From a virus: a stretch of 30,647 nt of DNA. Within the stretch, counting starts at the first letter, position 1, and each line of letters starts with the position of its first letter. Location of the stretch: positions 1 through 30,647 of the IMG/VR virus record IMGVR_UViG_3300032285_000995; one strand, given 5' to 3'. Positions 3,127-27,946 of this stretch are shown piece after piece. A program made the position numbers and the translations under genes. The notes beneath the pieces were generated by a model. It was given only the letters and a program-made list of their open reading frames with translations, was not told the DNA's origin and made no database searches.

Positions 3127-3624
3127 CTAATCTTTGAACTTAGGTGAACCAAACCCAACGATAAATGTTGGGAGCTTCTTTTTATTGTCTTTCTTGTAAC
3201 TACGTGTGCGTTCGCACACTTCGCCACCATTTGCTTGACTGCCCTTGGCTTTCTTTTCTGGGCTGGTGTTTCCTTCAATGGTTGTTACTGTTCCATCACC
3301 ATTATCTTTAATGACAATGCCAACGTGTTCCACTGGTGCTCCACCTTCGACAAAGTCAAAAAAGACTATGTCGCCTGGCTTTGGCTTAGATGTTGCAGCA
3401 TTGCTCCATTGACCAATGCCCTTGAATCCTTCGACACCGCCAGGCGTCCAAACACAGTTAGGAATTTTTAAACCAACCTGAGCAGCGCACCACATAACAA
3501 ATGATCCGCACCATGGCTGACCATTGTGCTTAGTAAAAGCACCATACTTGGTAAGGTTGTTACCTTCTTCGATTGTACCTAGTTCAGTCTTTGCGACTTC
3601 TAGAAACTTTTCTCTTTGGCTCAT
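3127..3624 (-). CDS. Endolysin with CHAP (NlpC/P60-like) cysteine peptidase/amidase domain
   Basis: In this 165-aa protein a CHAP domain fills nearly the whole length. The catalytic Cys is C39 in QPWCGSFVMW, the His is H100 in EHVGIV, and the polar partner is E117 or N119 in TIEGNT. PKPGDIVFF is the usual strand before the His. Such enzymes cut peptidoglycan peptide or amide bonds at lysis. No separate cell-wall-binding domain is present, though the basic C-terminus (KKDNKKKLP) could help binding. The start ATG 3624 has GGGGAATC just upstream and overlaps the preceding membrane-protein gene by 41 nt. Two holin-like genes immediately upstream complete a lysis cassette. The protein could instead be a virion-associated lysin, but the cassette argues for the endolysin. 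Confidence 0.85.
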   Translation of the reverse strand: MSQREKFLEVAKTELGTIEEGNNLTKYGAFTKHNGQPWCGSFVMWCAAQVGLKIPNCVWTPGGVEGFKGIGQWSNAATSKPKPGDIVFFDFVEGGAPVEHVGIVIKDNGDGTVTTIEGNTSPEKKAKGSQANGGEVCERTRSYKKDNKKKLPTFIVGFGSPKFKD

Positions 3625-11426: not shown

Positions 11427-12401
11427 TTAAGACGCGATGCTTGACTTGGATGTGATTACGTAACGTGCTTCTGGACGGAAGATGTTCCATCCAAGAAGTC
11501 CCTTCCAGCCCGCTGGGCGGAAGCGCATCAACTTATCTGTAACAGGACCGATAACAGTCTTTGGCTCGTAAGAGACAGCCTCGATAAGAGCCTGCTTTCC
11601 AAGAAGAACTGTCTTGTAGATCTTGTTAGCACCTGTACCTGAGAGTGACTCAGCACGTGGTGTTTCGATGTAGCGAACCTGATCGTAGATACCGATCTCG
11701 CCAACCCACTGTGAACCTACGCCAGCTTCTGTGTAGGTGTGTGGTTGCTGCCAAACAGCAGAACCGTTTGAAGATGCTTCTGAACGAATATCGTATGAAA
11801 CATCTGGGTGGATTAGTGCGGTGTAGAAACCACCGTCACGTGGCTGCACTGATGCGCCACGAAGCTTCGCAACACCCTTACGAGCAAGAGCTGCTGTTAG
11901 GTATGGTGCTGTTGTTGATGCAGATACATCCTGTCCGTTGACGGTTGATTCGTCAGCTGAAGTTGTACCTGTGAAACGACCAGTTGCAAGACCAGTCAAT
12001 GTCTGCCATGCAAGTGAATCCAGTGAGTCACGCATGTTGAATGACAACATGTCTGCAACTGCTGGATCGATTGCTGATAGAGATTCCAAAGCAAGGCGTT
12101 CAGTTGTGATTACTGAGTTACCGTATTCGTTAACTGTAACTTGAACCTTGTTTGTGTTGTTTAGTGTTACTGCATCTGGATCCGCAGTCTGTGTCAATGC
12201 TGTTGTAGCACGAGACAAATCTGTGTAGACCTGGAATACAACAGTGTTACCTGGGTTTGTTACATCGACAGGACGCTTGTCCGCAAACTTGCGGAACATT
12301 GGTTCTGAACGAAGGTTAAACTCAATGTACTTGTCATACGCCGTCTGGATCAAGTTCGACATCGTTGATGTCGTTGTTGATGTTACTGGTGTAGTAGGCA
12401 T
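11427..12401 (-). CDS. Major capsid protein (HK97-fold, N4-gp56-like)
   Basis: This 324-aa protein starts at ATG 12401 with AGAAGGAAA just upstream. Features are an opening Ser/Thr arm (residues 1-14), a helix with YDKYIEFNLRSEPMF, PGNTVVFQVYTDLS, a long E-loop-like stretch, VTVNEYGNSVITTERL, the spine-helix region ALARKGVAKLRGA, YTALIHPDVSYDIR, and the P-domain end KTVLLGKQALIEAVSYEPK with WKGLLGWNIFRPEARYVI. The 'VTVNEYG' and 'IHPD' motifs and the length match N4-gp56-type major capsid proteins. It is preceded by a coiled-coil scaffold gene and followed by a hairpin, as usual for a highly expressed capsid gene. No protease gene is seen nearby, and I see no clear sign of a delta domain. Confidence 0.85.
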   Translation of the reverse strand: MPTTPVTSTTTSTMSNLIQTAYDKYIEFNLRSEPMFRKFADKRPVDVTNPGNTVVFQVYTDLSRATTALTQTADPDAVTLNNTNKVQVTVNEYGNSVITTERLALESLSAIDPAVADMLSFNMRDSLDSLAWQTLTGLATGRFTGTTSADESTVNGQDVSASTTAPYLTAALARKGVAKLRGASVQPRDGGFYTALIHPDVSYDIRSEASSNGSAVWQQPHTYTEAGVGSQWVGEIGIYDQVRYIETPRAESLSGTGANKIYKTVLLGKQALIEAVSYEPKTVIGPVTDKLMRFRPAGWKGLLGWNIFRPEARYVITSKSSIAS

Positions 12402-12432: not shown

Positions 12433-12894
12433 TCAGCCACGAAGTAGGTTTGCAAGATCCTCTGGTGAAGAAGCGTTAGCAATTCTGCTAGCCAAATCTG
12501 CACCGACGAAAGGATCTATTCCGCCTGATTCGAAGTCTGAAATTTGCTCATGTAGTTGAGCGTCAGCGTCGATCTGTGCCGACCCTGAATCATCAACGGC
12601 AGATATGCCAAAGGCATCGCCGTATTCGTTTAACCATTCAGCCACCGCATCTTCGTCAGCTTCGACGTCTGATGGAATAAACTTAGCGATCTTTGGATTG
12701 AGTCCGTATCCTTCAAGGATTTCTCCGATTGAAGCCTCGTGACTATATGTTTGGAACTCCGCAATCATTTGATCTCTTTCCTTGAGTTCCTTGGAAAGAA
12801 CACTTACCTGCTTGCGTAGTTTCTTGAGTAAGTCAGTACCGCTTTCGAATTCATCGTTATCGTCTTCGAAGTCGTACTCTGTGTATTCTGCCAT
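12433..12894 (-). CDS. Scaffolding protein
   Basis: This 153-aa, very acidic protein has a clear coiled coil at residues 22-48 (LLKKLRKQVSVLSKELKERD), a helical middle and Asp/Glu-rich stretches, ending in SPEDLANLLRG. Size, charge, coiled coil and place just before the major capsid gene are typical of phage scaffolds that guide procapsid assembly. The start ATG 12894 has TAGGGAG about 8 nt upstream. The 140-bp gap before it (12895-13034) holds short weak hairpins (AACCC/GGGTT, CTGGT/ACCAG). It is the longest gap between 27.8 kb and the left terminator, so it may carry an internal promoter, though I see no convincing -35/-10 pair. Confidence 0.75.
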   Translation of the reverse strand: MAEYTEYDFEDDNDEFESGTDLLKKLRKQVSVLSKELKERDQMIAEFQTYSHEASIGEILEGYGLNPKIAKFIPSDVEADEDAVAEWLNEYGDAFGISAVDDSGSAQIDADAQLHEQISDFESGGIDPFVGADLASRIANASSPEDLANLLRG

Positions 12895-13034: not shown

Positions 13035-14678
13035 TTATACGTCAGACTTTTGCTTACGTCCCTTAAGCAGAGACGTATTGCTAATTGCTGACTGTTGCTT
13101 GAAGCGAGCGCGTTCTTGCGATGCAAGCTTTCTTGTATTAAGTGCTACGTCAGTTCCACCTGCAAGACCTAGTTGCTCACGAGCAAGATCTTGTTCTCCA
13201 GCAGTTTGACCAGCAAGACCAAGAAGTCTTGAGTAATCGCCACGATCTCTTGCAGCAGATTGGAATGCTTGTTCAGCACTGCCTGCTTTACCTGACTTAT
13301 AGATCTCTTCGGCAAATGCTTTATCAGCCATACCGCCAGCATTAAGTGAACCGCCTGCACGTTGTGCAGCACCACCGATTTCAGCAGAACCGTAAATTTC
13401 TTTAGCTTGTTCTGTTGTGTACTTGAATCGAGAATCAACAAGGTTGAATGCTTTCTCACTATCAAGCAGGTATGCCGTTAGATCTGATGTAGTCCAACCG
13501 TAGTAGTTCTTAAGTGCATCTACTGTTGCCTGGTCTGCATTCTGCAAAGCTTGCTTTGCAATATTGACACGGCTAGTTAATTCACTTGCACTAATGCTAT
13601 TTGAAATAAGCTTTGTGAAATCATCTTGGTTGTCATAGAAACCAGTAGGCAAACCTGCCTCGGTCATGATGTCGCGATATGTCTGCTCTGTTTGAATATA
13701 CTCATAAGGAGTAAGGAGCTTGTCGCCAGGACGACCTTCACCGTTAGCCATACGCTTGCGGATCTCTTCATTAGCAGCAAAGCGTTGCTTATAAGCATCG
13801 CTTGTGTAGACACTGTTGAGAATTTGCTGGTCGGTAGGCATAATGTTTTCTTGATATACCTTATCGATGGTGTCGCTTAGTGACTTAATAAAGTTAGCAC
13901 CAAGACCAGTATTCTCAAACATCTTCATTACTGAATCTTTAGCACCAAAGTCTGTATATGAATCAATGACTTTGCCTTGAGATCCATCTGACATAACTTC
14001 AACTGTCTCAACGACACCACCAGTTTTACGTACAGTCTTAACGCCAATAGCCTTTGGCTTAGCAGCTTCCGCTGCTGCGTTAGCTGTCATGCTTGCGATT
14101 TGATCAGTTAGTCTTTTGATCTCTTCTTGGATAGCAGTAGTCGCTGCAGTTTCTGCACCTTTACCACCAGCACCAGGACTTAGATTTGGATTTGTGAATA
14201 GATCAGTTCCAGAAGCATCTTTATTTGTGTTGGTGTTTGTATTGGTATTTGTGTCCGTATTGGTGTTAGTGCTTGTATTAATATTTGTATTAGTACTGGT
14301 ATCAGTAGTATCTACATTATTATCAACAGTTGTATTGTTCTCACCAAGAATTTTTCCATCTGAACCAGAAACATCTGGCTCCGAAGTCCCAGTATCAAAT
14401 GGTGTTGTGACTGTTGTATTATCGTTTGTTGCAGTATAAGTAGTTGATTGCCTATTATCTTGAGCAAGCTTAGCCATGCTAAGTTCTTCACCGACACGCC
14501 AGTTACCTGGTGATTGCTTCTGCATAGCCTGAAGGCTTGCAACCTCCTTGGCTAAAGCAGCGTCGCTTAGCGCATCATATCCAGTAGCAGCTGGCGCGGT
14601 TGCGCGTTCTGCTGCTTTAAAACTTGCAAGTGCATCTGAAAGACTAGTAGCTGAGCCACCACCTGTATAATCGTACAT
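13035..14678 (-). CDS. Putative internal virion (ejection) protein with Asn/Thr repeat linker
   Basis: This is a 547-aa protein. Residues 1-80 are helical (ALASFKAAERA, ALAKEVASLQAMQ). Residues 114-153 form a striking Asn/Thr repeat linker. Residues 160-547 are mostly helical, with EEIKRLTDQIASMTANAAA as a coiled coil, MFENTGLGANFIKSL, NSVYTSDAYKQRFAANEEIR, LTPYEYIQTEQTYRDIM and a Gly/Ala-rich end (GSLNAGGMADKAFAEEIY). I recognise no catalytic motif. The position next to a LysM protein and a 1663-aa protein, before the scaffold, fits an internal-core or ejection protein. That is inference from context and composition. Confidence 0.5.
   Translation of the reverse strand: MYDYTGGGSATSLSDALASFKAAERATAPAATGYDALSDAALAKEVASLQAMQKQSPGNWRVGEELSMAKLAQDNRQSTTYTATNDNTTVTTPFDTGTSEPDVSGSDGKILGENNTTVDNNVDTTDTSTNTNINTSTNTNTDTNTNTNTNTNKDASGTDLFTNPNLSPGAGGKGAETAATTAIQEEIKRLTDQIASMTANAAAEAAKPKAIGVKTVRKTGGVVETVEVMSDGSQGKVIDSYTDFGAKDSVMKMFENTGLGANFIKSLSDTIDKVYQENIMPTDQQILNSVYTSDAYKQRFAANEEIRKRMANGEGRPGDKLLTPYEYIQTEQTYRDIMTEAGLPTGFYDNQDDFTKLISNSISASELTSRVNIAKQALQNADQATVDALKNYYGWTTSDLTAYLLDSEKAFNLVDSRFKYTTEQAKEIYGSAEIGGAAQRAGGSLNAGGMADKAFAEEIYKSGKAGSAEQAFQSAARDRGDYSRLLGLAGQTAGEQDLAREQLGLAGGTDVALNTRKLASQERARFKQQSAISNTSLLKGRKQKSDV
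14220..14340 (-). repeat. Low-complexity Asn/Thr coding repeat
   Basis: About 40 codons alternate Asn and Thr (TNTN units) with occasional Ser and Asp, inside the 547-aa gene. The DNA is an imperfect tandem of 6-bp units (AAYACN on the coding strand), so slippage can change its length in frame. As protein it would be a flexible linker. Confidence 0.6.
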
Positions 14679-14681
14679 GCG

Positions 14682-16052
14682 TTACCCCAAGAATCCGAAG
14701 TCTTTGAGAATAGATGAGGCAACCCTCGTCTTTTCTTCTTTGGCATTTTGTGTCATGTCCCACTTATCGCTACGACGTGCCATCTTCTTAGCATCGTATA
14801 AGTTAATTGGACGAACATTTCCTTTTTCATCTGTCTGGTTTAGCACCTGCTGAACAGTTGAATCATTGAGATCAACTTGGTTAACATTCATTTCCCATGT
14901 ATCAGCAATAGCACTTAACCAAGGATCAGCTGCTTGACGCAGTGTTTGACCTTGATCAATAAGGTTTGAAAGACCAGGAGCAAATGACTTTGCTCTCTTC
15001 TGTAGTTGATTATCTACATCTTCTGGGTTTAATGTTCCAGCGGTAAGACCCTTCATGCTGTTCTCAAACCAACTAGTAAACCCATCATTAGACATAGTCT
15101 GTGGGAAGCCGTAATCCCATGCTTGCTTATATAAACTTGAAGCTAATGTAGAAAGACTTCCGCTAAGGTTTGTGTATACAACCTTCTGGTCTGTATTAAT
15201 AGCACCAGTATGTGTGAAGTCAATTGCTGAAGCCATAAGACCCTGTAGGTATTTAGCATCATATGAAACAACCTTGCCGTCTTTAATAACAGATTGCTGC
15301 ATCATTTGCTCTGCGTATTTAATTGCATCTTGCGCTGTAATCTTTAAACCAGCAGCAGAAAACTTACTAACAATAGAGCTGGCATTTGCTTGCAAGTCTG
15401 CAGCAAATTGTCCTGGGTTTGTCTCACGAGCAAACTCATACTGACGCTGCTTATCTGTTTGATCACGCCACCAAGAAGATTCCTTAATGACCTGTTCTTG
15501 TAGGTAAGGGTCTGTAATCATTGGTTGACCATTAGCACCAAGGATGCGCTCTAGCGCAGCCTTAAGTGATGGGTTGTTTGCAATGATTGCTGCAGCAATA
15601 CCATATTGCTTTGCAAGTTGAGCCAAAGAAAAAGTATCTTTAGTTTGTGGAGTAGATGTACTTAGACCAGATGAATCTGGTACTTGTGAACCAGGTGCTA
15701 CATATGGAGTTCCATCATTGTATGGATTTCCATCCCCATTTGTATCCAAAGGATTTGTCGGAGTACTTGGATTAGTAGGGTTAGTAGGATTAGTTGGGTT
15801 AGTTGTTGTATCGGCTGGCTTATATACCTGACCAGCGATGGTCATTGGCTGGCTAAATGTAGTTGATGATGTCTTAGCTGTAGACTTTGCTGGAGTTAAA
15901 TTAATCTTTGTGCCAGAAAATATTGTGCTTCCACCGTTGTACTTTGGATTGGTGGTAAGAGTTGGGTTAGCTTTCTTCAAAGCAGAAACAGTTGTGTTGT
16001 TAGCCTTAGCAATAGAACTTAGGGTGTCACCCTTTTTAACAATGTATGCCAT
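14682..16052 (-). CDS. Internal virion protein with N-terminal LysM domain
   Basis: This is a 456-aa protein. Residues 1-52 form a LysM domain (YIVKKGDTLSSIAKANNTTV, ANPTL, KYNGGSTIFSGTKINL), the peptidoglycan-binding fold. A Thr/Pro linker (residues ~90-115, NPTNPTNPTNPSTPTNP) follows, with an Asp/Asn-rich stretch (DTNGDGNPYNDG) that looks calcium-loop-like. The remaining ~310 residues are helical (LAQLAKQYGIAAAIIANNP, ITAQDAIKYAEQMM, SLSTLASSLYKQAW). It starts at TAATG overlapping the gene upstream. A wall-binding domain on a protein in the ejection block suggests it contacts the cell wall during DNA entry. LysM is clear; the rest is inference. Confidence 0.7.
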   Translation of the reverse strand: MAYIVKKGDTLSSIAKANNTTVSALKKANPTLTTNPKYNGGSTIFSGTKINLTPAKSTAKTSSTTFSQPMTIAGQVYKPADTTTNPTNPTNPTNPSTPTNPLDTNGDGNPYNDGTPYVAPGSQVPDSSGLSTSTPQTKDTFSLAQLAKQYGIAAAIIANNPSLKAALERILGANGQPMITDPYLQEQVIKESSWWRDQTDKQRQYEFARETNPGQFAADLQANASSIVSKFSAAGLKITAQDAIKYAEQMMQQSVIKDGKVVSYDAKYLQGLMASAIDFTHTGAINTDQKVVYTNLSGSLSTLASSLYKQAWDYGFPQTMSNDGFTSWFENSMKGLTAGTLNPEDVDNQLQKRAKSFAPGLSNLIDQGQTLRQAADPWLSAIADTWEMNVNQVDLNDSTVQQVLNQTDEKGNVRPINLYDAKKMARRSDKWDMTQNAKEEKTRVASSILKDFGFLG

Positions 16053-16945
16053 TACTGTACTACCTTGCCAATCGCTGTACGATCAGGTCCGATAAGACCG
16101 TCAACTATCTTTAAGAAATCTTTTGCAGCAAATGACTCTGCGTAGTCTGGAAGACTGCGAGCAAAGTTCTGTGCAAATAATTCTGGGTCAAAGCCAGTGG
16201 TTGATACAGCAGATGTATTACTTACATCTGCTGCTGTAGTTCCCTTGCCACCAACAGGTGTGGCTTTGCCAGCAACCGTTGTAGTGGTTGAGTTATAAGT
16301 AGCTGGTTCCAATTTAGCTTTTGCATTAGCAGCCTTAAGGTATGCTGCTGTTTCAGCAGAAGAGGCTTCACGACCAAGCTCGCTCTTTATCTTCTTGTTA
16401 ATAGTATTGCCAGCATCAGATGCGCTGTACTGTGTAACAGTAGATGTATTGCTTACGCTTGTTCCGTACTTAGATGCAGTTGCAGCTGACGCATAGTCAG
16501 ATGGTTGCATCAATGAGAAGTAATCTGTTGGATTGCTTGAAGCATTAGATCCTAAAGACTGTGTCCAATCAACAGCATCATTCCATGCTGACTGCCATTT
16601 CTTTTCTGGAATACCAAGTTTAATTAAATTGCCAGTAATTTCCTTATACAAAGCGGGATTGTTAGTCTTAAGAAATTTAAACCAAGACTTTGCTTCATCT
16701 GGTGAAGCACCGCGTTGAACTCCAGGAAGTTGAATAGTTGAAATAGTTGGATTAAACGATGGGTTTGGATCTGAAGTAGACTTGCTTGTTGTTTTAGAAG
16801 AAGTCTTAGATGTAGAAGTTGCCTTTGGCTTAGGTGTTACTGTTGGCTTAGGAGTTACCTTTGGCTTAACAGTTGGCTTAGGTGTTGGCTTTGGAGCTGT
16901 TGTCGCCTTTGGTTTTGGCGTTGTTGTTGGTTTAGGTGAAGCCAT
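16052..16945 (-). CDS. Putative virion protein with Pro/Lys/Thr-repeat N-terminus
   Basis: This 297-aa protein is read from ATG 16945, which overlaps the previous stop at TAATG. A start at 16996 would add 17 residues that only translate the end of the large gene in another frame. Residues 4-50 are a TPKPK / PKPT repeat. Then comes a Ser/Thr/Lys linker (TSKTSSKTTSKST) and a helical domain (DEAKSWFKFLKTNNPALYKE, WQSAWNDAVDWTQSLG) ending AKDFLKIVDGLIGPDRTA. The basic proline-rich arm could bind DNA or span the wall. Neighbours are the ejection-type proteins. No family is recognised. Confidence 0.55.
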   Translation of the reverse strand: MASPKPTTTPKPKATTAPKPTPKPTVKPKVTPKPTVTPKPKATSTSKTSSKTTSKSTSDPNPSFNPTISTIQLPGVQRGASPDEAKSWFKFLKTNNPALYKEITGNLIKLGIPEKKWQSAWNDAVDWTQSLGSNASSNPTDYFSLMQPSDYASAATASKYGTSVSNTSTVTQYSASDAGNTINKKIKSELGREASSAETAAYLKAANAKAKLEPATYNSTTTTVAGKATPVGGKGTTAADVSNTSAVSTTGFDPELFAQNFARSLPDYAESFAAKDFLKIVDGLIGPDRTAIGKVVQ

Positions 16946-19900
16946 TATCCAACTACCTTTCCTGTATCTAACTCGGGCATCGCTTGATCCAACCAACGTT
17001 TAGCAAATGCTCCGAACTCATCAGATGCATACTGCACATAGTTGTAATGGAATTGAGAGAACTGAGCCTTAAGGTCGTATTGACGCTGAGGGCTGTTCAT
17101 ATTTGTGTTATATAAGTCGTAGAACTTTTGAGCTTGTGAAGCCCAGTAGGCAATCTCTTGCCACTTGACGCCCTGCTTATCAGCATGAGCTCTCCACTTT
17201 GGATCATTTGCAATCTGAATGATTGCTGGCAATGTCTGCTTTTCAAAGTCTTTACGAGCACCATTGCGATCAGTTTCCCATCCTGGGAACTGATCAATGA
17301 TTGCATTTGTCATTCTTTCAACTTCATCCGCAATACCAGTTGTTTTGTAGCGAACTTCTGATGTTGACTTAATGCCATATTGATACATCATTGAGTCACG
17401 CCAGTTAGCTACTTTATTCCAGTCAGCCCAACCACGACGCGCTTCGACTTCTTGACGAAGTTCAATGTCTGTCTTCTTGGTTGTAAGTGGTGTCAAAGAT
17501 CCTGGATAGTTAAGACTCTTATAGATTGCTGCAATCTCAGTTGAATAATCAGTTGCAATATCTCCGTATCCAGCAGATAACATCTGTGCATACTTAGGAT
17601 TAGATCGACCAAGCTTTGTAAGAATCTCTGGGTTGTTACGAAGCATCTTGATGTCATCGTATGTTGCTGCAACACCAGCAATATTTTTTTGGTTTGAACC
17701 AATCAAAGCAATAGAGTCAATACCCCACTCAGCAGCCATTTGCTGCTCAGCCTTGTTGTAATCTCCGCCGTTTTCTTTAAGAAGCATGGCGTAATACTCT
17801 GTAGCTGCACGAGTTACTGGATCAAATGTAGTTGCAATTGGTGCAAAGAACTGAGTCACAGCACGGATGAATGACATATTGCCAGCAGCTTTGGCTGCCA
17901 TCTCCATAGTTGGAGGTTCTCCAATACGTCCTTCACGATCCCATTGTGAGTATGCAACTCGGAAGTTTGTAAAGACTTCATCAACAAATCGATCGCTTTT
18001 GCCTACGCCAATTGCATCAAGCACTTGCTTGATACCAGGAAGCATCTTGCCAGAATCAACTAAAGACTGAAGATAGCTAGGAACAACTGTATTCTTTACA
18101 GTTTCAATTAAGTTCTTTCCTTCAGTTGGATATCCACCATAAAGAATACTGTTGGTATAAACATCATCACCAAAGAAGTTGCGTAAGTTCTTAGAAATAT
18201 CTTCACCATGCATAGACCATAGTCCGCCTGGCAAAGAGAATCCATTCTTAACTACTTCTGAAATTCCAACAGTTCCAAACCAAGACACGCTTGGATCAGC
18301 AACCATGAACTCCATCTGCTTTGGATTCCACTTAAGACCACCACCGCGCTTATCAGTGTAGGGAAGTAACGCATCCTTTGCCCAACCTGGAAGGTTGTTT
18401 CCAAAAGGAATTGGGTACTTAATGCTTACTTGTGTTCCAGCTGGGACATCAGCCATGCTGCTGTATGTGTTGCCATCTTTATCCTCGTAGGGATTAAAAT
18501 TAGCAAGACCATTAGCTACGCTGTTATACCAATAAGCATTCATTGGGTTTTTAGCCATAAGTCGCAAAGCAACTGCCTGGCTATTAAAGAAAGCAAGTGG
18601 GAAGCTCATTGCATAACGCGCTGCGTACATACCATTGGTAAGGCGACGTGATGAATAAAGCGTTTGTTCCACACGTGTCAACGCATTTCGGTATGCGATC
18701 TGACGTAGTTGATTATTGACAACTGCGTCGGTTACATCCATGCCAGAACGTTGTGCTGCGTTAATTAAAGTCTTTAACTCATCTCGAGTATAAGATAAGA
18801 ACATTGGGTTGCGAACCATACGAGTTTCGGTCGCAGATAGAATCTTCCATCCTGCATCAAGAACTCCAGTTACTCCAGCAACTGCACGTTCGTACTTATT
18901 AAGATCATTAAGATTGATGTTTGGTCCATCAATTGTTTCAGGAAGATCTGGACGATTCTTGAGAAGTGTTTCTACTTCCTGTACGGTTACTGGACGCTCA
19001 AGAATTACATCACGTAATTCTTGGCTTGGATACATGGAGCGAAGTTTGTCTCCTGTTTGTGCAATCCATGCAGAGTATTCGTCTTGGCTTAACTCATGAC
19101 CAGCACGAGATGACATACGACGACGATATTCTTTTCCAGCATCCCCAGTGTATAACCACTTAAGAACAGATTGATCTGACTCACCGCGCATGATCATGCC
19201 TAGTGGCATGTCAAGTTCGTTACGAATCTGTCGGTTAGCAATATGAGCCAATGCGTTCCAATAAGGCTTGCCTTCTGAACGACGAATGGTTACAAATCGT
19301 GAACCTTCTGCACGAAGACGACGACCATACTCAGACTGCATAGCAGTGCTATAGAAGTTCTGGGCTGAATCAACTTCAGACATGTATGCATTTGCACCAC
19401 GGATGTTTGGATCAGCAAGACCAGCAATCTTATATTCTTTACCGTTAACTGTAATTGTTTCGGCATCTTGACCAAGGTGTTTGCGCTGAGCAAGCTTTCC
19501 TTGATAGATGGCACTGTCTTTAATCTTAGCTCGGTGCTTTTCGATTACAGTTGAAATACCCTGCACTCGCTCACCTGTACGTGCAAGCTGATTCTCTGCC
19601 TCATAAAAAAGTTTTTGTGCTTCATAAAGAGCATAATCTGCTTGGTGCATTGCAGCTTCTGCGGAAGCTTTAGCTGAACCGCTAGCTTTTTGAGCTGCTG
19701 CTGCAGCCTTAGCCTGTGTATTGCGAGCTGCTTGCCAAGCTTTCTCAGCTTGGTCAAAAGTCTTTTGTGCATCTTCCCACGGAAGAATTGCTTTATTAAG
19801 ATCTGCTCCAAGAATATCCATCTGCTTCATGATGTCTTTTTCTGCACGACGTGCAGCTGCACCAGCAGTACCAGGAACGTATCGCTTTAGCGATTCGTTG

Positions 19901-21936
19901 CGTAGTGATTGATTATGGATAATGTTCTTTACACCTGGAACTGCATTACCGATAAGTTCTGTAGATTCCATAGCCATAGAACCACGAGCAAATGGATCAA
20001 CCATTGAGTTCTTAGGAATGTATGCAAAACGAAGCAAGTTCAAGTTATTAAACACCATGTTGGCTGTATCTAAGAATGAACCTACGCCCATGGCAGCTTG
20101 AGAAAGTTTTGCCATGTTGAGATCTTCTCTTGCAATTGGTGATACACCCTTAGCAAGACGATCTACGTTTCGAATAACTTCATTCTCAAGGCGACCAAAG
20201 TCAAGCATTGGAACTGTCTGTGCTTCATTAGATACAGACCAGAAGTTAGATACGTTCAGTACACCATCTTCATCAGGGATCAAACCATTCTTAACAGCGT
20301 ACTGTTGAAGAGTCTGACGACGTTGAGAAGTTCCTACGTGCCAGCGTGTAATCTGGTCAACGGCTTCTTTTGATGTACGAATGTCACCAACGGCTGACAC
20401 CTTGTAGTGATTAGCCATGTATGTCATGACATTCTTTTCAATGTTGGCTAATGCAATGGCACGTTGTGTGTCATCTTGTGCAGCCATAAACTTTTCTACT
20501 TGGTCGCGCTTGAACTTCATACCTTCTGGTGTACGAAGCATGCGTAAGCGGTTCAAATCTGATAGAAGATCAGAAGAAGCTTCGAACTTACGTGGGTTTG
20601 AAATATTAATATGACCTTGTGGTCGACCTGATCCAGCCCATGAAATTAATCTGACGGCACGATCGTACGCTTCTGACTGGTAGACCTGAGTCTTCCAACC
20701 TTCTCCACCATCTTTGCCAAATAACTTTACATCTCCATACTTTGCTTGCAAAGCAAGCTTCTTTTTCTGAAGACCAATGTTTTCTAGCGCACCAAAACGT
20801 CCAGGCTGGTAACTTTCTACCACACCGCTTGTAACCTTTGACTTAAAATCGTCAAGTGCTGCAGCAAATTTAGGATCCGATGCTTTCTTTCCATCAATGA
20901 TTGCTTGATAACGCGCAGTCATATTTGGCTCAAGAGTATCTAGGTGAATCTTTGACCAATCATCAATTGGATCAAACTTATTAATACCATAATTATCAAG
21001 ATGGTCAGCAACTAATGGCTTTGATTTAAATAAAGCATCAAATGCCTGAGCATCTCCACGTTCAGCCTTAAGATAATTTGCTACGTCAGCATGATTATCA
21101 AGACGAGAAAGGATTGTTGCTGTACGACCAGGGTTAGATGTCTCAGAAACCAAAGGATTGCTAGCAAGCTTGGTTAGATTTGTCTCTTTAACAGCATCGT
21201 CAATCAGGACTGCAAGTCCTGACGGTGCTGGAGTACCATCTTTAGCTTCTGCCCATGCAACAGCCTCGTCAGCCTTAGCTTTAAAGGTGTTCATGTCTTT
21301 GATTGTGACGATCTTCTTTGCGCCTACAACTTTTGTTGTTGCAGCTTTGGTTGCAGAACCTACGCCCTTAGTTCCAAGCGCAGCAATTGCTAGATCAGTA
21401 CCGCCTGATGCAATGATTCCAGTCCATTCATCACGGAATGCTTTGTTTCTTTGCACATCATCAAAGATGTCAAAGTTCTTATCAGCAAACTTTGGTGTGA
21501 TTTGATCTGGAAGAAAGCCAAGACCTTGACCAACAGTTGTTGCAACTGCTTGACCCATTGAAATCTTCTTGGCTTGTTCTTTTGCAAACTTAAAACTCTT
21601 AGCAACTCCACTAATGCCTTCATGTGGGTGCTGTTTCATTGCTTCTACGGTAAGAACGCCAGTAGATATACCTTGAGTAACAGGTTGAATAACGCGCTTG
21701 TTAAGGTTTTCCATTACGCGTAACGCTGGATTCAAAAAGAATCCAGTTACAGAGTTCTTTTGACCCGCCTTTATAGCACCTGCTACTTTAGGAACAATAG
21801 CTTTTTCAATGCCACCAACTTTGTCGTTAGCAAATGTTTGCTTCTGAAAGTTTTCTACCTTGCTAAAGGTAGGTCCTGGTGCTGTCTGTGAAATTTGGCT
21901 GTTCCATACAGACCAATCAAGCTTGTTGTCCGCCAT
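16945..21936 (-). CDS. Giant internal virion (ejection) protein, 1663 aa
   Basis: This is the largest gene of the window. The sequence is almost all helical. Early parts carry FLNPALRVMENLNKRVIQPV, and GLGFLPDQITPKFADKNFD. A long coiled coil with Ala/Lys/Gln lies near residues 740-815 (AKAAAAAQKASGSAKASAEA). At about 1050-1200 lie NPMFLSYTRDELKTLINAAQ and YAMSFPLAFFNSQAVALRLM, the RNP-F and FP-aFF-A-a-R blocks I know from very large phage core or polyvalent proteins. No lytic transglycosylase or nuclease motif was found by eye. In T7-like phages, proteins of similar length are ejected and form a trans-envelope channel. That role is inferred here from size, helicity and place. A minicluster of small genes precedes it, with GGAGG 9 nt before the ATG. 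Confidence 0.65.
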   Translation of the reverse strand: MADNKLDWSVWNSQISQTAPGPTFSKVENFQKQTFANDKVGGIEKAIVPKVAGAIKAGQKNSVTGFFLNPALRVMENLNKRVIQPVTQGISTGVLTVEAMKQHPHEGISGVAKSFKFAKEQAKKISMGQAVATTVGQGLGFLPDQITPKFADKNFDIFDDVQRNKAFRDEWTGIIASGGTDLAIAALGTKGVGSATKAATTKVVGAKKIVTIKDMNTFKAKADEAVAWAEAKDGTPAPSGLAVLIDDAVKETNLTKLASNPLVSETSNPGRTATILSRLDNHADVANYLKAERGDAQAFDALFKSKPLVADHLDNYGINKFDPIDDWSKIHLDTLEPNMTARYQAIIDGKKASDPKFAAALDDFKSKVTSGVVESYQPGRFGALENIGLQKKKLALQAKYGDVKLFGKDGGEGWKTQVYQSEAYDRAVRLISWAGSGRPQGHINISNPRKFEASSDLLSDLNRLRMLRTPEGMKFKRDQVEKFMAAQDDTQRAIALANIEKNVMTYMANHYKVSAVGDIRTSKEAVDQITRWHVGTSQRRQTLQQYAVKNGLIPDEDGVLNVSNFWSVSNEAQTVPMLDFGRLENEVIRNVDRLAKGVSPIAREDLNMAKLSQAAMGVGSFLDTANMVFNNLNLLRFAYIPKNSMVDPFARGSMAMESTELIGNAVPGVKNIIHNQSLRNESLKRYVPGTAGAAARRAEKDIMKQMDILGADLNKAILPWEDAQKTFDQAEKAWQAARNTQAKAAAAAQKASGSAKASAEAAMHQADYALYEAQKLFYEAENQLARTGERVQGISTVIEKHRAKIKDSAIYQGKLAQRKHLGQDAETITVNGKEYKIAGLADPNIRGANAYMSEVDSAQNFYSTAMQSEYGRRLRAEGSRFVTIRRSEGKPYWNALAHIANRQIRNELDMPLGMIMRGESDQSVLKWLYTGDAGKEYRRRMSSRAGHELSQDEYSAWIAQTGDKLRSMYPSQELRDVILERPVTVQEVETLLKNRPDLPETIDGPNINLNDLNKYERAVAGVTGVLDAGWKILSATETRMVRNPMFLSYTRDELKTLINAAQRSGMDVTDAVVNNQLRQIAYRNALTRVEQTLYSSRRLTNGMYAARYAMSFPLAFFNSQAVALRLMAKNPMNAYWYNSVANGLANFNPYEDKDGNTYSSMADVPAGTQVSIKYPIPFGNNLPGWAKDALLPYTDKRGGGLKWNPKQMEFMVADPSVSWFGTVGISEVVKNGFSLPGGLWSMHGEDISKNLRNFFGDDVYTNSILYGGYPTEGKNLIETVKNTVVPSYLQSLVDSGKMLPGIKQVLDAIGVGKSDRFVDEVFTNFRVAYSQWDREGRIGEPPTMEMAAKAAGNMSFIRAVTQFFAPIATTFDPVTRAATEYYAMLLKENGGDYNKAEQQMAAEWGIDSIALIGSNQKNIAGVAATYDDIKMLRNNPEILTKLGRSNPKYAQMLSAGYGDIATDYSTEIAAIYKSLNYPGSLTPLTTKKTDIELRQEVEARRGWADWNKVANWRDSMMYQYGIKSTSEVRYKTTGIADEVERMTNAIIDQFPGWETDRNGARKDFEKQTLPAIIQIANDPKWRAHADKQGVKWQEIAYWASQAQKFYDLYNTNMNSPQRQYDLKAQFSQFHYNYVQYASDEFGAFAKRWLDQAMPELDTGKVVG

Positions 21937-22090
21937 TTGGTGCAGCCTCCTCTCGAGTCGTCAACTCCTGTAGTAATGAAATACGATCAGCGTCGGACTC
22001 GAAAGGTAATCGGGCTAAATCCCAAGCAACTGGAGCCATATCGAATCCCAAGAATTCGAGATTTTGCTCGAACTTCTTAAGAACTTTCAT
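21917..22090 (-). CDS. Small acidic protein ahead of the giant ejection protein (57 aa)
   Basis: ATG 22090 overlaps the stop of the upstream gene (ATGA). The TGA at 21917-21919 lies 20 nt inside the giant gene, and this ORF contains the giant gene's GGAGG ribosome-binding site. The product begins MKVLKKFEQNLEFLGFDMAP, then PVAWDLARLPFESDADR and QELTTREEAAPNGG. No family is recognised. It could be an assembly partner of the large protein. Coupling on both sides supports a real gene. Confidence 0.6.
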   Translation of the reverse strand: MKVLKKFEQNLEFLGFDMAPVAWDLARLPFESDADRISLLQELTTREEAAPNGGQQA

Positions 22091-22506
22091 TCAGTCTGAC
22101 TCCGTAGGTAGTTAACAAATGCTTTCATAGTTCCACTTGATTGTGGAGAATCCGCGAATTGCGCCATTAATGGCATGTATTTAGCAATAGTAGAAAGATC
22201 TTGCAATTGAACATCAATTGGGCTTTGCATTCCAAGGATGTCTCGACCTGGTCCTGGACCAGCGTCGACACCAGCAGTTACTGGTTCATTAGGACGTCCT
22301 GTTGGCGCACTTAATGGAACGACGTTAGCCATTGGATTAGGTGTTTTAGCCATTGGTGCTGCAGCTTCTTGCTGCATAAATTGCTGTTGCTCACCATAAG
22401 CAGGGTTAGGCAAACGCTTTATCCCCTGCTTTGGTGGAAGGTCAGTACGCTTAGTCAGCTTACCTGGTCCAGCAACCGCTCCAGGGTTTGGTTGCATCAT
22501 TGACAT
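22087..22506 (-). CDS. Pro/Gln-rich hypothetical virion-region protein
   Basis: This 139-aa protein has a disordered, Pro/Gly/Gln/Met-rich front (QPNPGAVAGPGKLTKR, PAYGEQQQFMQQEAAAP) and a short helical end (LQDLSTIAKYMPLMAQFADS). The start ATG 22506 follows ATAGGTAAC and lies 7 nt after the LysM-gene stop. No domain is recognised. It may be a small core or portal-associated protein, judged only from its neighbours. Confidence 0.6.
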   Translation of the reverse strand: MSMMQPNPGAVAGPGKLTKRTDLPPKQGIKRLPNPAYGEQQQFMQQEAAAPMAKTPNPMANVVPLSAPTGRPNEPVTAGVDAGPGPGRDILGMQSPIDVQLQDLSTIAKYMPLMAQFADSPQSSGTMKAFVNYLRSQTE

Positions 22507-22513
22507 AAGTTAC

Positions 22514-24004
22514 CTATTTCTTAATTGTAGGGATCTTGACCTTTGTTCCTGACCAGATCATGTTGCCTTGCTTGTACTTGGCATTCTTTTTAAAGATTGG
22601 GTTTGCTGTGTGGATGTCATCAAGAGTTACACCCGCTGCCTTTGCGATACCTGAAAGAGTATCGCCCTTGGTTACACTGTATGTAGAACCTTGAGCTGGC
22701 TTAGATGTTGTACCACCTGCTGCAATATTAATATTTGCTTTAGATGATGACATATGCGATGGTGCAATAACCTTCTTGCCAGAAGCATTTGTTGATGTTG
22801 CTGGCTTAACTGTTGGCTTTGCAGTAGTTGCTGCCTTATCTTTCTTAGCTTGCAACTTAGCAATCTTTGCGTTGAGTTCATCCATACGCTCACGACGTGT
22901 CTTACCAACAAGACCAAATGTTGCAAGAGATGCAAGGTTTGCTGCATCGCCCTTCATTGCAGAGATTGGGTTCTTGTTGCTTCCCATGTTCTTATACTTA
23001 GGAGCTTGACCCTTAAGAGCAGCGTACTTATTCTCAAGACGCTGAATCTCTTTAAAGTCTTTTTCGGTTGAACCTTTAACTGCAGATACGGCTTCTGCTG
23101 CAAGTGATGTTACTACAGCACCCTTAGCAAACTTCTTTGTTCTTCCAAACTTCTTTACCTTATCGGCAACTGAAGCAACTGGCTTTGCTTCAACACGAGT
23201 TGATGCAACTTCTCCAGCTTTTGGACGCACAGCAACTTCCTTAGATGTTGAAGGTGCATTGGTGCGTGTTGATTGAACATACTTAGGCTTTGATACTTCA
23301 ACTGCCTTTGATGTAGGTTCTTTAAACAACTTTGGGTTAGCTGACTTAGCAGCCTCTGCTGGTGTCTTTCCCGCATCACGTGCTGCTTTGTATGCTGAAG
23401 GCTTTTCTGCTGGCTTGCCAGCAGCTTTTTCTTGAGCAAACAAAGCCTTGTTCATTGCAGACTTTGGCTTTACGCCTTGCTTGATAAGTTCATCGTAACG
23501 AGCCTTACCAGCAGCATTAAGTTCTTTACCTGCTGCGTATCCTTTAGTTGCAGGCTTGGCAGCTGGTTTTGCAGCTGGCTTCGCAGCAGTCTTTGCTGCC
23601 GTTGGTTTTGATGCGGCTTTCTTGACTGCTTTCGCAGGAGCAGCTTTCGGTGCAGACTTTGGTGTTGATGGTGTAGCACCTTTCTCTGGTGGATATAGAC
23701 CTTCTTCTCGCATCTGAGCTCTAAACTTTTCACGAGCTTGGCGACCTTCACGGTCAAATCTTTCTGCTGCAGTCTCTGTTGGCTTGCCAACGTTAATTGA
23801 CTTACCGTCTGGACCAGTAATGACTCCAGCACGTGATTCTTTAGATACCTCACGGAGAACTTGCTTATCTTCAGCAGTTAACTTACCTGTGATGTCCTTA
23901 CGACGTGCCTGAACCTTACCGCTAAACGCTGCCTTAGCATCAGCCTTGGCAGCCGAACGAGCCTGCTTAAACTTCTTTGGAGCTTTTGGTTTCTTGGCTG
24001 CCAT
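22514..24004 (-). CDS. Lys/Ala-rich (histone H1-like) protein with C-terminal LysM
   Basis: This is a 496-aa, very basic protein. Residues 1-60 are Lys/Ala-rich (KKPKAPKKFKQARSAAKADA). Residues 105-150 hold an H1-like Pro/Ala/Lys repeat (AAKPAAKPAAKPATKG). The middle has coiled-coil segments (EIQRLENKYAALKG, LNAKIAKLQAKKDKA). Residues about 440-496 are a LysM domain (YSVTKGDTLSGIAKAAGV, ANPIF, KYKQGNMIWSGTKVKI) closely alike to that of the 14682-16052 protein. A protein that could bind DNA at one end and peptidoglycan at the other fits a packaged, ejected virion protein; that function is inference. The start ATG has AAGGATAA just upstream. Confidence 0.7.
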   Translation of the reverse strand: MAAKKPKAPKKFKQARSAAKADAKAAFSGKVQARRKDITGKLTAEDKQVLREVSKESRAGVITGPDGKSINVGKPTETAAERFDREGRQAREKFRAQMREEGLYPPEKGATPSTPKSAPKAAPAKAVKKAASKPTAAKTAAKPAAKPAAKPATKGYAAGKELNAAGKARYDELIKQGVKPKSAMNKALFAQEKAAGKPAEKPSAYKAARDAGKTPAEAAKSANPKLFKEPTSKAVEVSKPKYVQSTRTNAPSTSKEVAVRPKAGEVASTRVEAKPVASVADKVKKFGRTKKFAKGAVVTSLAAEAVSAVKGSTEKDFKEIQRLENKYAALKGQAPKYKNMGSNKNPISAMKGDAANLASLATFGLVGKTRRERMDELNAKIAKLQAKKDKAATTAKPTVKPATSTNASGKKVIAPSHMSSSKANINIAAGGTTSKPAQGSTYSVTKGDTLSGIAKAAGVTLDDIHTANPIFKKNAKYKQGNMIWSGTKVKIPTIKK

Positions 24005-24178: not shown

Positions 24179-25954
24179 TTATGCTGGGATCTGGCGAGTT
24201 ACTCTCGCCGATAGATTGGGGTTACCGCCACCTGTTAGACCAGCAAGAAGTTCTTGCATAGGAGGTCTACCCTGTGGCATTTGTGGTGCTTGTCCACCAC
24301 CCATAGGTGGTTCACCTGGCATGCCAGGCATTTCAGACTCTGGTGCTTGTGCGCCAGGTGCTGGTGTGGGTGCTGGTTTTGGCTTGAACGCATTACTAAC
24401 TGCATCCTCGAGCGGTACGCCCTTCTTGCGATCGTTAATAACGCTAGCCATCTTTTCAACAACTTGCATCGGATCTTGACCTTGCGAAACCATTTGTGGA
24501 ATCGCAGCAGCAAGTTGAGACACAGAAGCCTTAAGGCTGTCACGCATCTCTTCGATGTCAATTGCCCGCTCTTCTTCTCCAGCGTTGAGCGAAATTGGAA
24601 GGTTGCGACGTAGCATGCCACGTGAAATTAACTTATCTCCACGAGCTTGTAAGCCCCATACCAAAGCACGGTTTGGATCTAGCCCCGCCATTAATCCGTA
24701 TTCAACAGTAACACCGTAGTTACCATTGATGTCTGAAGATGGTTTGTACTTTAACTTGTAAGGTACGCCATTGGCAGTAGCTGAAACTTCTCTAGTTAAT
24801 TCAGGGAAGTAAATTTCGTCAGTTGCGTAGCAAAGAGAAACAACCTGACCGATTGCTTCACCAAGAATAGATTGCGAAATTTTAACTTGTGAGTCATACC
24901 CAGCCATCAAAGCCTTTACGCCTTGACCTGTAACTACTGAGCCTTCCGCTTGTCCCGCACGTGCTTGAGGGAAGCGTGTTCCAAGTTTCATTTCATCTGC
25001 TAGAACATTGTTCTCTGCAAATGCAAACTGTGGTACGTCGAGATTTACACGACGAATCTTTTCAGGAGAGTTCGAACGAATGACACTATCAGGACCGACG
25101 GTAAGCTGAGTAACGTCAGTAGGCAATGCCAAAGGAGCTTCAACAGATTTTTGAACAGCTTCCATCGTAAGGAGCGCAAGACGCGCTTTCGCTGCGTAGA
25201 CTGGTAGTACATCGTCGAATTGTCCCCGTTGTTCACCATCCAGTGAAGGACGGAAAGCAATCGCAACTGGTACTTTACCGAGCTTGTTGGGTGTTTGTGC
25301 AAGTACTGCTCCATTGCGTTCTGGTAAAAAGAGAATGGTTTTATCTTTATCAATCCAACGAACTACCTGAAGTAGTGAGTTGCTATCGGTGCGTTGACCG
25401 AATGTAGATGTCTGAAGGATTTGATCTGCTACTTCAGGGAAGCTAGCAGCAAGATCGCCAGCCTTACGATGGTATAGACGAGCGTAGGTGTTTACAACAC
25501 CGAAGCGATCAATATCAAAATAAGCACCCATTGAATTCTCAACATGGATGTGTGGTCTTTTATCTTTAAAGTTTGGTTCGACACGTAGTGGGACGAAACC
25601 GTAAGTGATCAACTGATCTGCGCCACGCAGAAGCTCCGTACCAAGACGTGAAGCAGCGACATAGTAGTTAGCTATCTTCGTACGCTTGTCTGCCTTAGTA
25701 CGCTGGTTATCATCTAGTGATGAATCGCCAGCAGCTGTAATGGTAGGAAGAACGCCAATCTGCTCAGAGAGATCTCGAGCAACAACGTCGATGAGGTTAG
25801 CAATGATTGGTCGAGACCAAACACCTTCTGGAAATAGACCAGGAAAGACTTGCTCGGCTGCTCCCGCTCTTACAAGCGAAACCTCGCGCATGCGCTTATC
25901 GCGCTCGGCATTACGGACTTTTAAAGCCTCAAATGCTGTTACTAGTTCTTTCAT
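24179..25954 (-). CDS. Portal protein
   Basis: This is a protein of about 591 aa directly after TerL, the usual place. It has an N-terminal helix (ALKVRNAERDKRMREVS), RPIIANLIDVVARDLSEQIG, a wing with AASRLGTELLRGADQLITYG and a strand FVPLRVEPNF. It continues with YAAKARLALLTMEAVQKSV and the clip/crown-side segments QARAGQAEGSVVTGQGVKAL and QSILGEAIGQVVSLC. The C-terminus is Pro/Met-rich. Portals form the 12-subunit ring through which DNA is packaged. The start ATG 25954 is 5 nt past the terminase stop. A GTG at 25963 would overlap that stop and add three residues. There is no fused protease or MuF domain. Confidence 0.8.
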   Translation of the reverse strand: MKELVTAFEALKVRNAERDKRMREVSLVRAGAAEQVFPGLFPEGVWSRPIIANLIDVVARDLSEQIGVLPTITAAGDSSLDDNQRTKADKRTKIANYYVAASRLGTELLRGADQLITYGFVPLRVEPNFKDKRPHIHVENSMGAYFDIDRFGVVNTYARLYHRKAGDLAASFPEVADQILQTSTFGQRTDSNSLLQVVRWIDKDKTILFLPERNGAVLAQTPNKLGKVPVAIAFRPSLDGEQRGQFDDVLPVYAAKARLALLTMEAVQKSVEAPLALPTDVTQLTVGPDSVIRSNSPEKIRRVNLDVPQFAFAENNVLADEMKLGTRFPQARAGQAEGSVVTGQGVKALMAGYDSQVKISQSILGEAIGQVVSLCYATDEIYFPELTREVSATANGVPYKLKYKPSSDINGNYGVTVEYGLMAGLDPNRALVWGLQARGDKLISRGMLRRNLPISLNAGEEERAIDIEEMRDSLKASVSQLAAAIPQMVSQGQDPMQVVEKMASVINDRKKGVPLEDAVSNAFKPKPAPTPAPGAQAPESEMPGMPGEPPMGGGQAPQMPQGRPPMQELLAGLTGGGNPNLSARVTRQIPA

Positions 25955-25959
25955 TAATA

Positions 25960-27852
25960 TCACAATCTCACAGTTTGCTGAGCTGCAGCAAGGTCATCTA
26001 GGTTGATGATGTAACGACTTTCAATATCTCCACGTGGTGTGTATTGATTATTGAGGAAGTTAGTCATATTGGACGATGTCATGAGAGTCTCACGAGCTAC
26101 GATCTCGCAGAACCAGAGAGCCATTACGGCGTCCATCTTTAACTGCTTGCCTTGCTTACCTGGTTGCCAGGTTACAAGTTGCTCGATAAGTTTCTTGACA
26201 TGCTCGTTCTTTGAAGAATCTGGCAATTCGATTAAGTTATCGCCAGCATGTTTGTAATTGTTCATAACTCCATCACGTTTAGTAACAGAGCCAAACAACG
26301 GTGCGAGTGAGGCTACGCCAAACTCGGGGTCTTGCTTATTGTTTCCTGTGTAATGAGGTCTGTAGTTAATACCTCTGGTTGACAGGAAGTTACGAATTTC
26401 TTCGTCTTGAGTTAAGAAAAGCTGAAAGGCATTGCTTTCTACAATAACCGTTTGAGGCTTGTAGGCATCTGTCCATTCCTTGATAAGAGAGCGAATAGCT
26501 GCAGGTGTAGGAGCCGTCATGATGTGAACATCCATGATGTAGCGTTTATGTGTCCTGCGGTCTATTGCATAAGCGACAGCTGCTGTGTCTCCTGACATAG
26601 CTGGGTCGATACCAATAACCTTAAAGAAGTTCTGAGGGCTATCAGGATGACCTGCTGCGCCTGCAATCAAAGCACCCGACTTTCTCATTCCGTTAACCGC
26701 GCCTCTGACGCACATCGGGTCGAAGATTGCATTCTCCGCAATATCGAGGTTCTGGTAAACCAAAGACCACTTAGATGGTCCAGCCTCGTTTCGGACCGCC
26801 GTTAGACGCGGTCCAGTCCATCGATCAAACAACCCATTCTCGTCGGGTACGTCAGTATCCGTGAGTGGTTCGGTTGTTTTCTCCCAAAGGGTTTTCCAAT
26901 CCTTTGGATCGTCAGCGTACTCAAGCACTGCTGGCATGGACAAATATGACCAAGGCAATATGCCGTCGGTGTAATGCTGTGGGTTGCGGAGCTCTTTATA
27001 TAAGTCAGTTGCTGCAACGCGAGTACCAACGACAAGAAGCTGCCCTCCGCCTGGTGGTAGACGGCTGGCAACTTCTTGGCGAATCCATTCTTGTTGCTTA
27101 GCCCATTCATTGGCGTTAGACAACGTCACTACGTCGTCTAGCACAATGAGGTCTGCACGGTTTCCGTACACTTGCCCACCCATACCGATCGCTTCGATCG
27201 TAGGGTCTTTGGCGTCTGAATCTCTGGTGTCTCCACCGAGGTAAACTTTGTTTGCCGACCACTGGTCAGCTGTGGCTTTGTAGCCATCTACAGGACCAAA
27301 AGCTGCCTGTAGGTCTGCATACCGAGGATGCGTCAAGCGTTGCTTGATCGCATACAAAAACTTCTTAGCTTGCTCTTGCGTCTTGGAAATAACCATGACG
27401 TTGATGTTGGGATTCTTCACAATGCGGTAGGTCACATAGTTAATTGTGATCGTCATTGTCTTGGCGTGGTTAGGTGGTACGTTTACCAAGAGGCGGGATA
27501 AACCCGCCGACCCTTTCTCGTAGACCATTGACTCATGGAGCCAGGATGGTTCTCTACCTTCCAACATATCCACCACATTCATCATGTGGGGTGGGACTAC
27601 AGTACCAAGGTACTTGGCTGAGAAATCACCAAAGTCTGATAGATTAGACCGAGCGTCTGTAGCAAGGTCTTTAGTTCTAAACCGAGCATTATCAACCATG
27701 GCTGAGAATCCTTGGACGTCTCGGCGACTGGTGTCATACCAGGAGCGAGACCTACCAATAACGACCAGCGCGTCAGCGATGGTGCGTCCTTGTCTTACCA
27801 GATCAATAAGTTCTTTACGAGCTTCCTCTGGTGTCAGATTACGTTGGCTCAA
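25960..27852 (-). CDS. terL: Terminase large subunit with TerS-like N-terminal HTH
   Basis: This 630-aa protein is read from TTG 27852, which has GGAGG four bases upstream. An in-frame ATG at 27936 would add 28 residues of low-grade sequence and lies inside a hairpin loop. Numbering from the TTG: residues 4-57 form a small-terminase-like HTH (EEARKELIDLVRQGRTIADA, RSRSWYDTSRRDVQGFSAMV). The Walker A-like NVPPNHAKT is at 124-132, and Walker B LIVLDDVV with catalytic acids at 235-242, followed by the coupling GTRVAATDL. The RNase H-type nuclease has Asp in GIDPAMSGD (~416), Glu in VIVESN (~472) and Asp in KMDAVMALWF (~574). It packages DNA into the procapsid through the portal. No separate small terminase is visible in the window. 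Confidence 0.9.
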   Translation of the reverse strand: MSQRNLTPEEARKELIDLVRQGRTIADALVVIGRSRSWYDTSRRDVQGFSAMVDNARFRTKDLATDARSNLSDFGDFSAKYLGTVVPPHMMNVVDMLEGREPSWLHESMVYEKGSAGLSRLLVNVPPNHAKTMTITINYVTYRIVKNPNINVMVISKTQEQAKKFLYAIKQRLTHPRYADLQAAFGPVDGYKATADQWSANKVYLGGDTRDSDAKDPTIEAIGMGGQVYGNRADLIVLDDVVTLSNANEWAKQQEWIRQEVASRLPPGGGQLLVVGTRVAATDLYKELRNPQHYTDGILPWSYLSMPAVLEYADDPKDWKTLWEKTTEPLTDTDVPDENGLFDRWTGPRLTAVRNEAGPSKWSLVYQNLDIAENAIFDPMCVRGAVNGMRKSGALIAGAAGHPDSPQNFFKVIGIDPAMSGDTAAVAYAIDRRTHKRYIMDVHIMTAPTPAAIRSLIKEWTDAYKPQTVIVESNAFQLFLTQDEEIRNFLSTRGINYRPHYTGNNKQDPEFGVASLAPLFGSVTKRDGVMNNYKHAGDNLIELPDSSKNEHVKKLIEQLVTWQPGKQGKQLKMDAVMALWFCEIVARETLMTSSNMTNFLNNQYTPRGDIESRYIINLDDLAAAQQTVRL

Positions 27853-27927
27853 TCTTCCTCCAGGGGTTGTAGGGGTACACCAGTATTTAAATAGAGGTAT
27901 CCCCGCGAAGCTTATATAACCATCATT

Positions 27928-27946
27928 AGCGGGCATTAAGCCCGCT
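27928..27946. repeat. Perfect 7-bp inverted repeat over the upstream terminase ATG
   Basis: AGCGGGC (27928-27934), loop ATTAA, GCCCGCT (27940-27946). The ATG at 27936 (27934-27936 on the minus strand) lies at the loop and stem edge. A hairpin in the mRNA would hide this codon. This supports use of the downstream TTG with its GGAGG site, or marks an operator of the late promoter. Confidence 0.5.

Follow-up and report, generated by a model that had tools for sequence, protein, structure and literature searches.

The window analysed here is a 30,647-base virus record (IMGVR_UViG_3300032285_000995), whose structural genes lie on one strand. Two proteins of its portal-to-capsid block carry LysM domains, and on balance we favour a reading in which both proteins would be virion-borne and the LysMs would bind peptidoglycan, targeting the DNA-delivery proteins of a short-tailed phage to the wall where relatives carry a cutting enzyme. 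The domains, one modelled fold, their conservation and a protein head that is exchanged between LysM, none and wall-cutting enzymes were observed directly. P456, P496 and P547 are working labels for proteins of the 456-, 496- and 547-amino-acid (aa) types, with or without LysM. Their features in the window are as follows.

22514..24004, (-) strand: P496 gene, 496 aa (open reading frame (ORF), composition and 43 related loci)
22529..22687, (-) strand: P496 LysM at the C-terminus, aa 440-492, extended subtype (Pfam LysM, E 6.3e-7; 53/53 orthologs of the nr95 set)
14682..16052, (-) strand: P456 gene, 456 aa (ORF)
15897..16049, (-) strand: P456 LysM at the N-terminus, aa 2-52, "extended" subtype (Pfam LysM, E 9.1e-11; AlphaFold2 model)
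15636..15884, (-) strand: P456 linker, T/N/P-rich and disordered, aa 57-139 (predicted local distance difference test (pLDDT) <50 over most of 57-139)
14685..15662, (-) strand: helical body of P456, aa 131-456, phrog_6654 (E 4.9e-26; Streptomyces phage matches; helical in the AlphaFold2 model)
13035..14678, (-) strand: P547, phrog_8424, without LysM in the window (Pfam, PHROGs)

The original prediction, made from the letters of this DNA, had placed a LysM at the N-terminus of the 456-aa protein and another at the C-terminus of the 496-aa protein. Both ORFs and their Pfam matches bear this out, with LysM (PF01476, curated cut-off 20.9 bits) matching P456 aa 3-33 at 42 bits (E 9.1e-11) and P496 aa 442-492 at 29.7 bits (E 6.3e-7). 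A six-frame scan of the whole record found these two and no third. The elements KGDTLS.IAKA, ANP and KY..G..I.SGTK, said to be common to both domains, were seen in both sequences, and a single BLASTP comparison gave 25/50 identical positions (E 2e-15). Compared with the SafA LysM (PDB 7r1l), both domains have an insert of ~6 residues before the last strand, which reads ..NPKYNGG.. in P456 and was modelled there as a short extra helix (residues 36-41).

The model of the P456 LysM was confident (pLDDT ~95) and showed a beta-alpha-alpha-beta fold, with Z up to 8.6 against solved LysMs. Its closest folds bind walls or glycans (4uz2, Z 8.6; 7r1l with GlcNAc3, Z 8.4, root-mean-square deviation (rmsd) 1.0 over 46). 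Baseplate LysMs scored 7.3 (phiCD508), 6.8 (Streptomyces contractile injection system), 5.3 (A-1(L)) and 5.1 (P2 gpX), where Z differences <1 count as tied. The rmsd to the model was 0.8-1.0 for glycan-binding LysMs vs. 1.8-3.3 for baseplate LysMs.

The head of P456 was compared with that of its homologs in Streptomyces phages. Manuel and Treat encode tandem paralogs of one body (L003 12627-15235 and L004 12240-14854, respectively). The first copy has an NlpC/P60 head (Manuel gp12, E 2.6e-29; found in 2/2 Streptomyces records) and the second an SLT transglycosylase head (over the cut-off in 2/2); no LysM was found in these two genomes. Because the P456 body bears peptidoglycan hydrolase domains in its N-terminal slot in Streptomyces phages, a wall-acting role for the slot is supported. 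Streptomyces phage homologs of P456 are annotated as minor tail protein (annotation only), and superposing the P456 model on the structure predicted for the FlowerPower minor tail protein gives a template-modelling score of 0.56 over 330 columns. UniProt already has a homolog of 465 aa that is 55% identical to P456 (BFVD A0A1B0XTU1). On a body-only tree, the head states (extended LysM, short LysM, none, enzyme) required at least 11 changes, and the presence of LysM on P547 required 12, nine of them forced by well-supported branches; all trees were of the quick type. Four P456 orthologs (L036, L050, L202, L205) had a basic, proline-rich, disordered-looking N-terminus in place of LysM.

Among freshwater records, hand-picked like those for the WhiB counts below from loci that P456, P496 or LysM queries had returned, LysM occurred in 21/21 (20 plus the window), with one to three copies each in open frames of 310-567 aa. 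NlpC-type matches occurred in 4/21 and SLT-type matches in 6/21 (one above the cut-off), and each lay in a small frame of its own (129-176 aa) outside P456; no LysM was found in these small frames in the 21 records.

The likeness to Streptomyces phages of the Beephvirinae (Manuel, Treat, FlowerPower, Abafar) extends to the order TerL, portal, 139-aa protein, giant, gp11, P456-type, P547-type, 153-aa type and capsid. The P456 body (Manuel gp12/gp13), the giant and other block proteins are homologous to those of the window, with the giants 20% identical (hhalign probability 94.7). In contrast, the Beephvirinae have tandem P456 copies with NlpC/P60 and SLT, and the window has one copy with LysM. 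The window phage is a relative of the Beephvirinae and is not filed as a member, because it has this one LysM copy and not the armed tandem copies. A tblastn search of 50,697 phage records found no P496.

Viral contigs searched at the protein level yielded 19 P456 loci, 43 P496 loci (found partly via a LysM peptide, one of six patterns) and 80 P456-family loci, and a search with LysM alone gave at least 79 loci; several loci share contigs. In a first set, Pfam run on each member found LysM in 18/26 P456, 12/25 P547 and 37/37 P496. In the nr95 set, which holds complete ORFs of <95% identity scored with purpose-built LysM profiles (excluding short ORFs and those truncated at the end of a contig), the counts were 41/59, 41/70 and 53/53, respectively, with no LysM in 36 giants or 57 members of the 314-aa family. 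There are thus three LysM sites, of which P496 is constant and P456 and P547 are variable. The whole P496 protein is 32-69% identical to that of the window (36 relatives), and its LysM is nonetheless kept in 53/53. Among 75 distinct P456/P547 pairs, LysM was on both proteins in 39, on P456 only in 21, on P547 only in six and on neither in nine. In a distant branch (L099, L108, L111, L121, L122, L143), the P456-type protein lacked LysM and P547 had it at aa 12-63. One 82,688-base contig (L013/L162/L214) contained the P456 block and the WhiB gene twice each, along with five LysM domains, and is probably two different phage genomes joined.

The two LysMs of the window had also been described as closely similar and as one duplicated module. 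They are indeed 50% identical in alignment, but this is not close by the measure of same-site identity: the 48-50% between sites falls below the 60-63% mean of same-site LysMs across phages, and the earlier wording needs correcting. The LysM tree (157 rows, 54 columns, many open forks) groups by site, not by genome, with one change needed for P496 (support 64), four for P456 and eight for P547, vs. ~36-37 when site labels were shuffled (P496: 37.4). In both cases the row nearest to the window LysM came from the corresponding site in another phage (L208 for P456, L024 for P496). Mean P496-P456 identity was 44.4 within genomes vs. 43.0 between them (20 genomes; 82/2000 permutations as high), and the corresponding values were 42.4 vs. 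44.0 for P496-P547 (12 genomes) and 47.7 vs. 49.3 for P456-P547 (34 genomes). A recent duplication of one LysM inside this genome would fit the 50% identity and the common insert, but the clustering by site, with one change for P496 vs. 37.4 in shuffles, and a within-genome identity not clearly above the between-genome value make it extremely improbable, and on these two grounds we reject it for this lineage. The two domains can be called one duplicated module only in a deep sense, and the sites would reflect either an old split or separate filling from a common pool. Because the short-form LysM at P456 groups with the ordinary LysM of other phage proteins in the tree, it suggests replacement within the slot.

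Other aquatic phages also have the extended LysM, KY..G..I.SGT insert included, close to the C-terminal end of long proteins. It lies in the C-terminal part of tape-measure or other very long ORFs in L083, L129, L119, L093 and L120. Of five long carriers compared with PHROGs, L083 and L129 were clear tape-measure proteins, L119 was weaker, L130 was weak and L093 had no such match. The same subtype was found in 275-340-aa proteins, several of which adjoin a long tail protein. Tape-measure proteins may be the first-in counterpart of delivery proteins in long tails, although the carrier protein and tail type in the aquatic phages (L083, L129, L119) differ from those of the window. In tblastn against the 50,697 phage records, hits at 43-51% identity came from 2 and 13 records for the two LysM domains, and 1/2 and 12/13 of these named-phage matches are annotated as endolysins or wall hydrolases; the full insert was absent from all three named-phage LysMs inspected. 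A search of cellular genomes with the LysM alignment (one per species, 84,980 bacterial and archaeal species) gave no confirmed relative among 20 pattern stretches; with one or two short patterns used, this absence is weak evidence.

We picture P496 and P456 as late structural proteins, encoded with the giant between portal and capsid, whose LysM modules would be peptidoglycan-binding heads on flexible linkers. Both would be carried in or on the virion and, on infection, may exit together with the DNA or before it. The LysM heads would grip glycan strands of the host wall and hold the delivery complex; other parts would presumably open the way, and the DNA would pass while the complex is held. 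P456, P496 and the giant may form or feed the delivery path. P496 may be packed next to the DNA because of its strong positive charge: the window protein is very basic (isoelectric point (pI) 10.3, net +65), with K/A/P-rich linkers and a weakly hydrophobic stretch at aa 292-310, and the pI is 10.2-10.7 in 53/53 orthologs. A wall-anchored ejection apparatus had been proposed for this DNA; LysMs on two proteins of the portal-to-capsid block and the wall-acting role are retained from that idea, but not the duplication in this lineage. A bolder version, which we advance tentatively and consider rather doubtful, is that the delivery apparatus of this group of freshwater actinophages traded peptidoglycan cutting for gripping, with an extended phage-type LysM on up to three proteins replacing the enzyme heads of soil relatives and docking the complex.

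Several observations weigh against peptidoglycan targeting by these LysMs. The fold preference for glycan-binding over baseplate LysMs is slight, and in phages with contractile tails LysM serves as a structural component of the baseplate (PMC10966104, PMC11915804). The giant was not tied to any ejection protein, a PDB sequence search with it giving no match at E <0.3. LysM was missing from 14/55 non-Streptomyces P456 and 29/70 P547 of the nr95 set and from both proteins in 9/75 pairs; it is dispensable at two of its three sites (P456 and P547), since it is often absent there. The LysMs might be structural plugs between virion proteins, as in contractile-tail baseplates, and never touch peptidoglycan. 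Consistent with this, the LysMs of Mu gp43 and A-1(L) gp16 are described as built into the baseplate, phage and injection-system baseplate LysMs were among the fold matches, and the strictly kept P496 LysM could reflect a fixed contact. We nonetheless consider plugs unlikely: the group looks short-tailed, where such a baseplate is not expected, the P456 slot accepts LysM, an enzyme, a basic/proline-rich tail or nothing, which suits a targeting head better, the model shows a disordered linker following the P456 LysM, and the fold is nearest, slightly, to glycan-binding LysMs.

Alternatively, LysM could be the substrate arm of an unrecognised wall-cutting enzyme in the P456 body, the giant or the 314-aa protein, so that the complex both binds and cuts; this overlaps with peptidoglycan targeting on binding and differs on cutting. 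LysM is usually found alongside hydrolases, which favours such an enzyme, as do the cutting domains in the same slot of relatives and the predominance of endolysins or wall hydrolases among the named-phage matches (1/2 and 12/13). However, no enzyme domain was recognised by Pfam or PHROGs in P456, P496, P547, the giant, the 314-aa or the 139-aa protein, and the P456 body had no match in the PDB (weak evidence; Foldseek with the whole P456 model included), so we regard a concealed enzyme as improbable. The frequency of LysM in endolysins, as seen in the named-phage matches, would also suit late non-virion proteins with a wall function in lysis or assembly. A role of this kind is very unlikely for P496 and P456, whose genes lie between portal and capsid in the packaging/structural block of a phage with a separate endolysin-like gene and whose P456 homologs in Streptomyces phages carry the minor tail annotation. 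That LysM is part of the endolysin was rejected in the case of the window, which has LysM in P456 and P496 only; PHROG "endolysin" rows for the block proteins cover the LysM part.

The gene order in the window is terminase, portal, P496, 139-aa protein, 1663-aa giant, 314-aa protein, P456, P547, acidic 153-aa protein and capsid. The LysM proteins do flank the giant, as had been claimed, but they are not adjacent to it, since the 139-aa and 314-aa ORFs intervene. The neighbouring features are given below.

25960..27936, (-) strand: terminase large subunit (Pfam and PHROGs; context)
24179..25963, (-) strand: portal protein, phrog_104 (PHROGs; context)
22087..22506, (-) strand: 139-aa protein, phrog_8200, between P496 and the giant (position that of Manuel gp08)
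16945..21936, (-) strand: 1663-aa giant, phrog_10618, homolog of Manuel gp10 (Pfam, PHROGs, profile comparison)
16052..16996, (-) strand: basic protein of 314 aa, homologous to Manuel gp11, with the giant on one side and P456 on the other (comparison, composition)
12433..12894, (-) strand: acidic 153-aa protein (pI 4.05) before the capsid gene (PHROGs, composition)
11427..12401, (-) strand: major capsid protein, phrog_1357 (Pfam and PHROGs; context)
3127..3624, (-) strand: endolysin-like hydrolase without LysM (PHROG endolysin families; partial NLPC_P60, 23.9 bits)

The acidic protein may be scaffold-like, judged by its place and charge. At 7155-9374, the window also encodes a tail fibre-like 739-aa protein with a long near-repeat run (ATSASSALTSQTS and variants).

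The giant of the window contained no LysM or recognised enzyme domain (Pfam, PHROGs), and we treat it as a putative ejection protein from its size and place only. The model of aa 820-1663 was poor (pLDDT 62.4), and its best Foldseek match had E 0.49. No matches to T7 gp14/gp15/gp16 were found by sequence or fold, with a weak model for the giant and the P456 body searched within the whole model. With the P456 model, the PhiM1 ejectosome gave only a weak row (Z 4.3 over 50 residues), which was not used. In cellular genomes, the giant had no confirmed relative (33 pattern stretches of one or two short patterns; weak evidence).

WhiB genes were found in 18/24 records, namely 16/18 of this group and 2/6 of the non-group records with the extended LysM; the two records of this group without WhiB are fragments of 16.8 and 10.8 kilobases. 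The host is likely actinobacterial, because WhiB is frequent and the nearest named relatives are Streptomyces phages. Its order may be Nanopelagicales, a guess from guanine-cytosine content and the habitat of such contigs. WhiB is described as an actinophage mark (PMC10202952), and Manuelvirus Abafar is reported to be a podovirus by electron microscopy (PMC11536984). By analogy with Abafar, this freshwater group looks short-tailed.

Wall-acting domains on delivery proteins and LysM on virion proteins are already known. In the T7 gp14/gp15/gp16 ejectosome, also that of a short-tailed phage, a DNA-delivery protein likewise carries a wall-acting domain; the window differs in having a binding module, not a hydrolase, and a likely Gram-positive host, and no sequence or fold link was found. 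One review states that a hydrolase domain can move between ejection proteins and that T7 gp16 is wall-acting; it deals mainly with phages of Gram-negative bacteria and describes phi29-like phages as without such proteins (PMC8954989). The TM4 tape measure carries a peptidoglycan-hydrolase motif on a long delivery-type actinobacteriophage protein and aids DNA entry (PMC1796659), but TM4 is long-tailed and has an enzyme rather than LysM, on one protein. Mu gp43, A-1(L) gp16, T4 gp53 and P2 gpX share the LysM fold on virion proteins, the place that P456 and P496 would have; theirs are built into baseplates, whereas the window LysMs are terminal, by linkers, and carry the insert, in a group that looks short-tailed. 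For endolysins, domain mosaicism that includes LysM has been described (PMC10684548).

In the portion of our literature search results that was covered, LysM on an ejection-type block of short-tailed actinobacteriophages was not reported, no paper combined LysM with an ejectosome and none on freshwater actinophages mentioned LysM. To our knowledge, the passage of short-tailed phage DNA through the actinobacterial wall has been little studied. The natural series described here, in which the head of one body is a peptidase, a transglycosylase or a LysM, or is missing, would offer a ready comparison of cutting vs. binding at the wall step, and it includes relatives of phages growable on laboratory Streptomyces.

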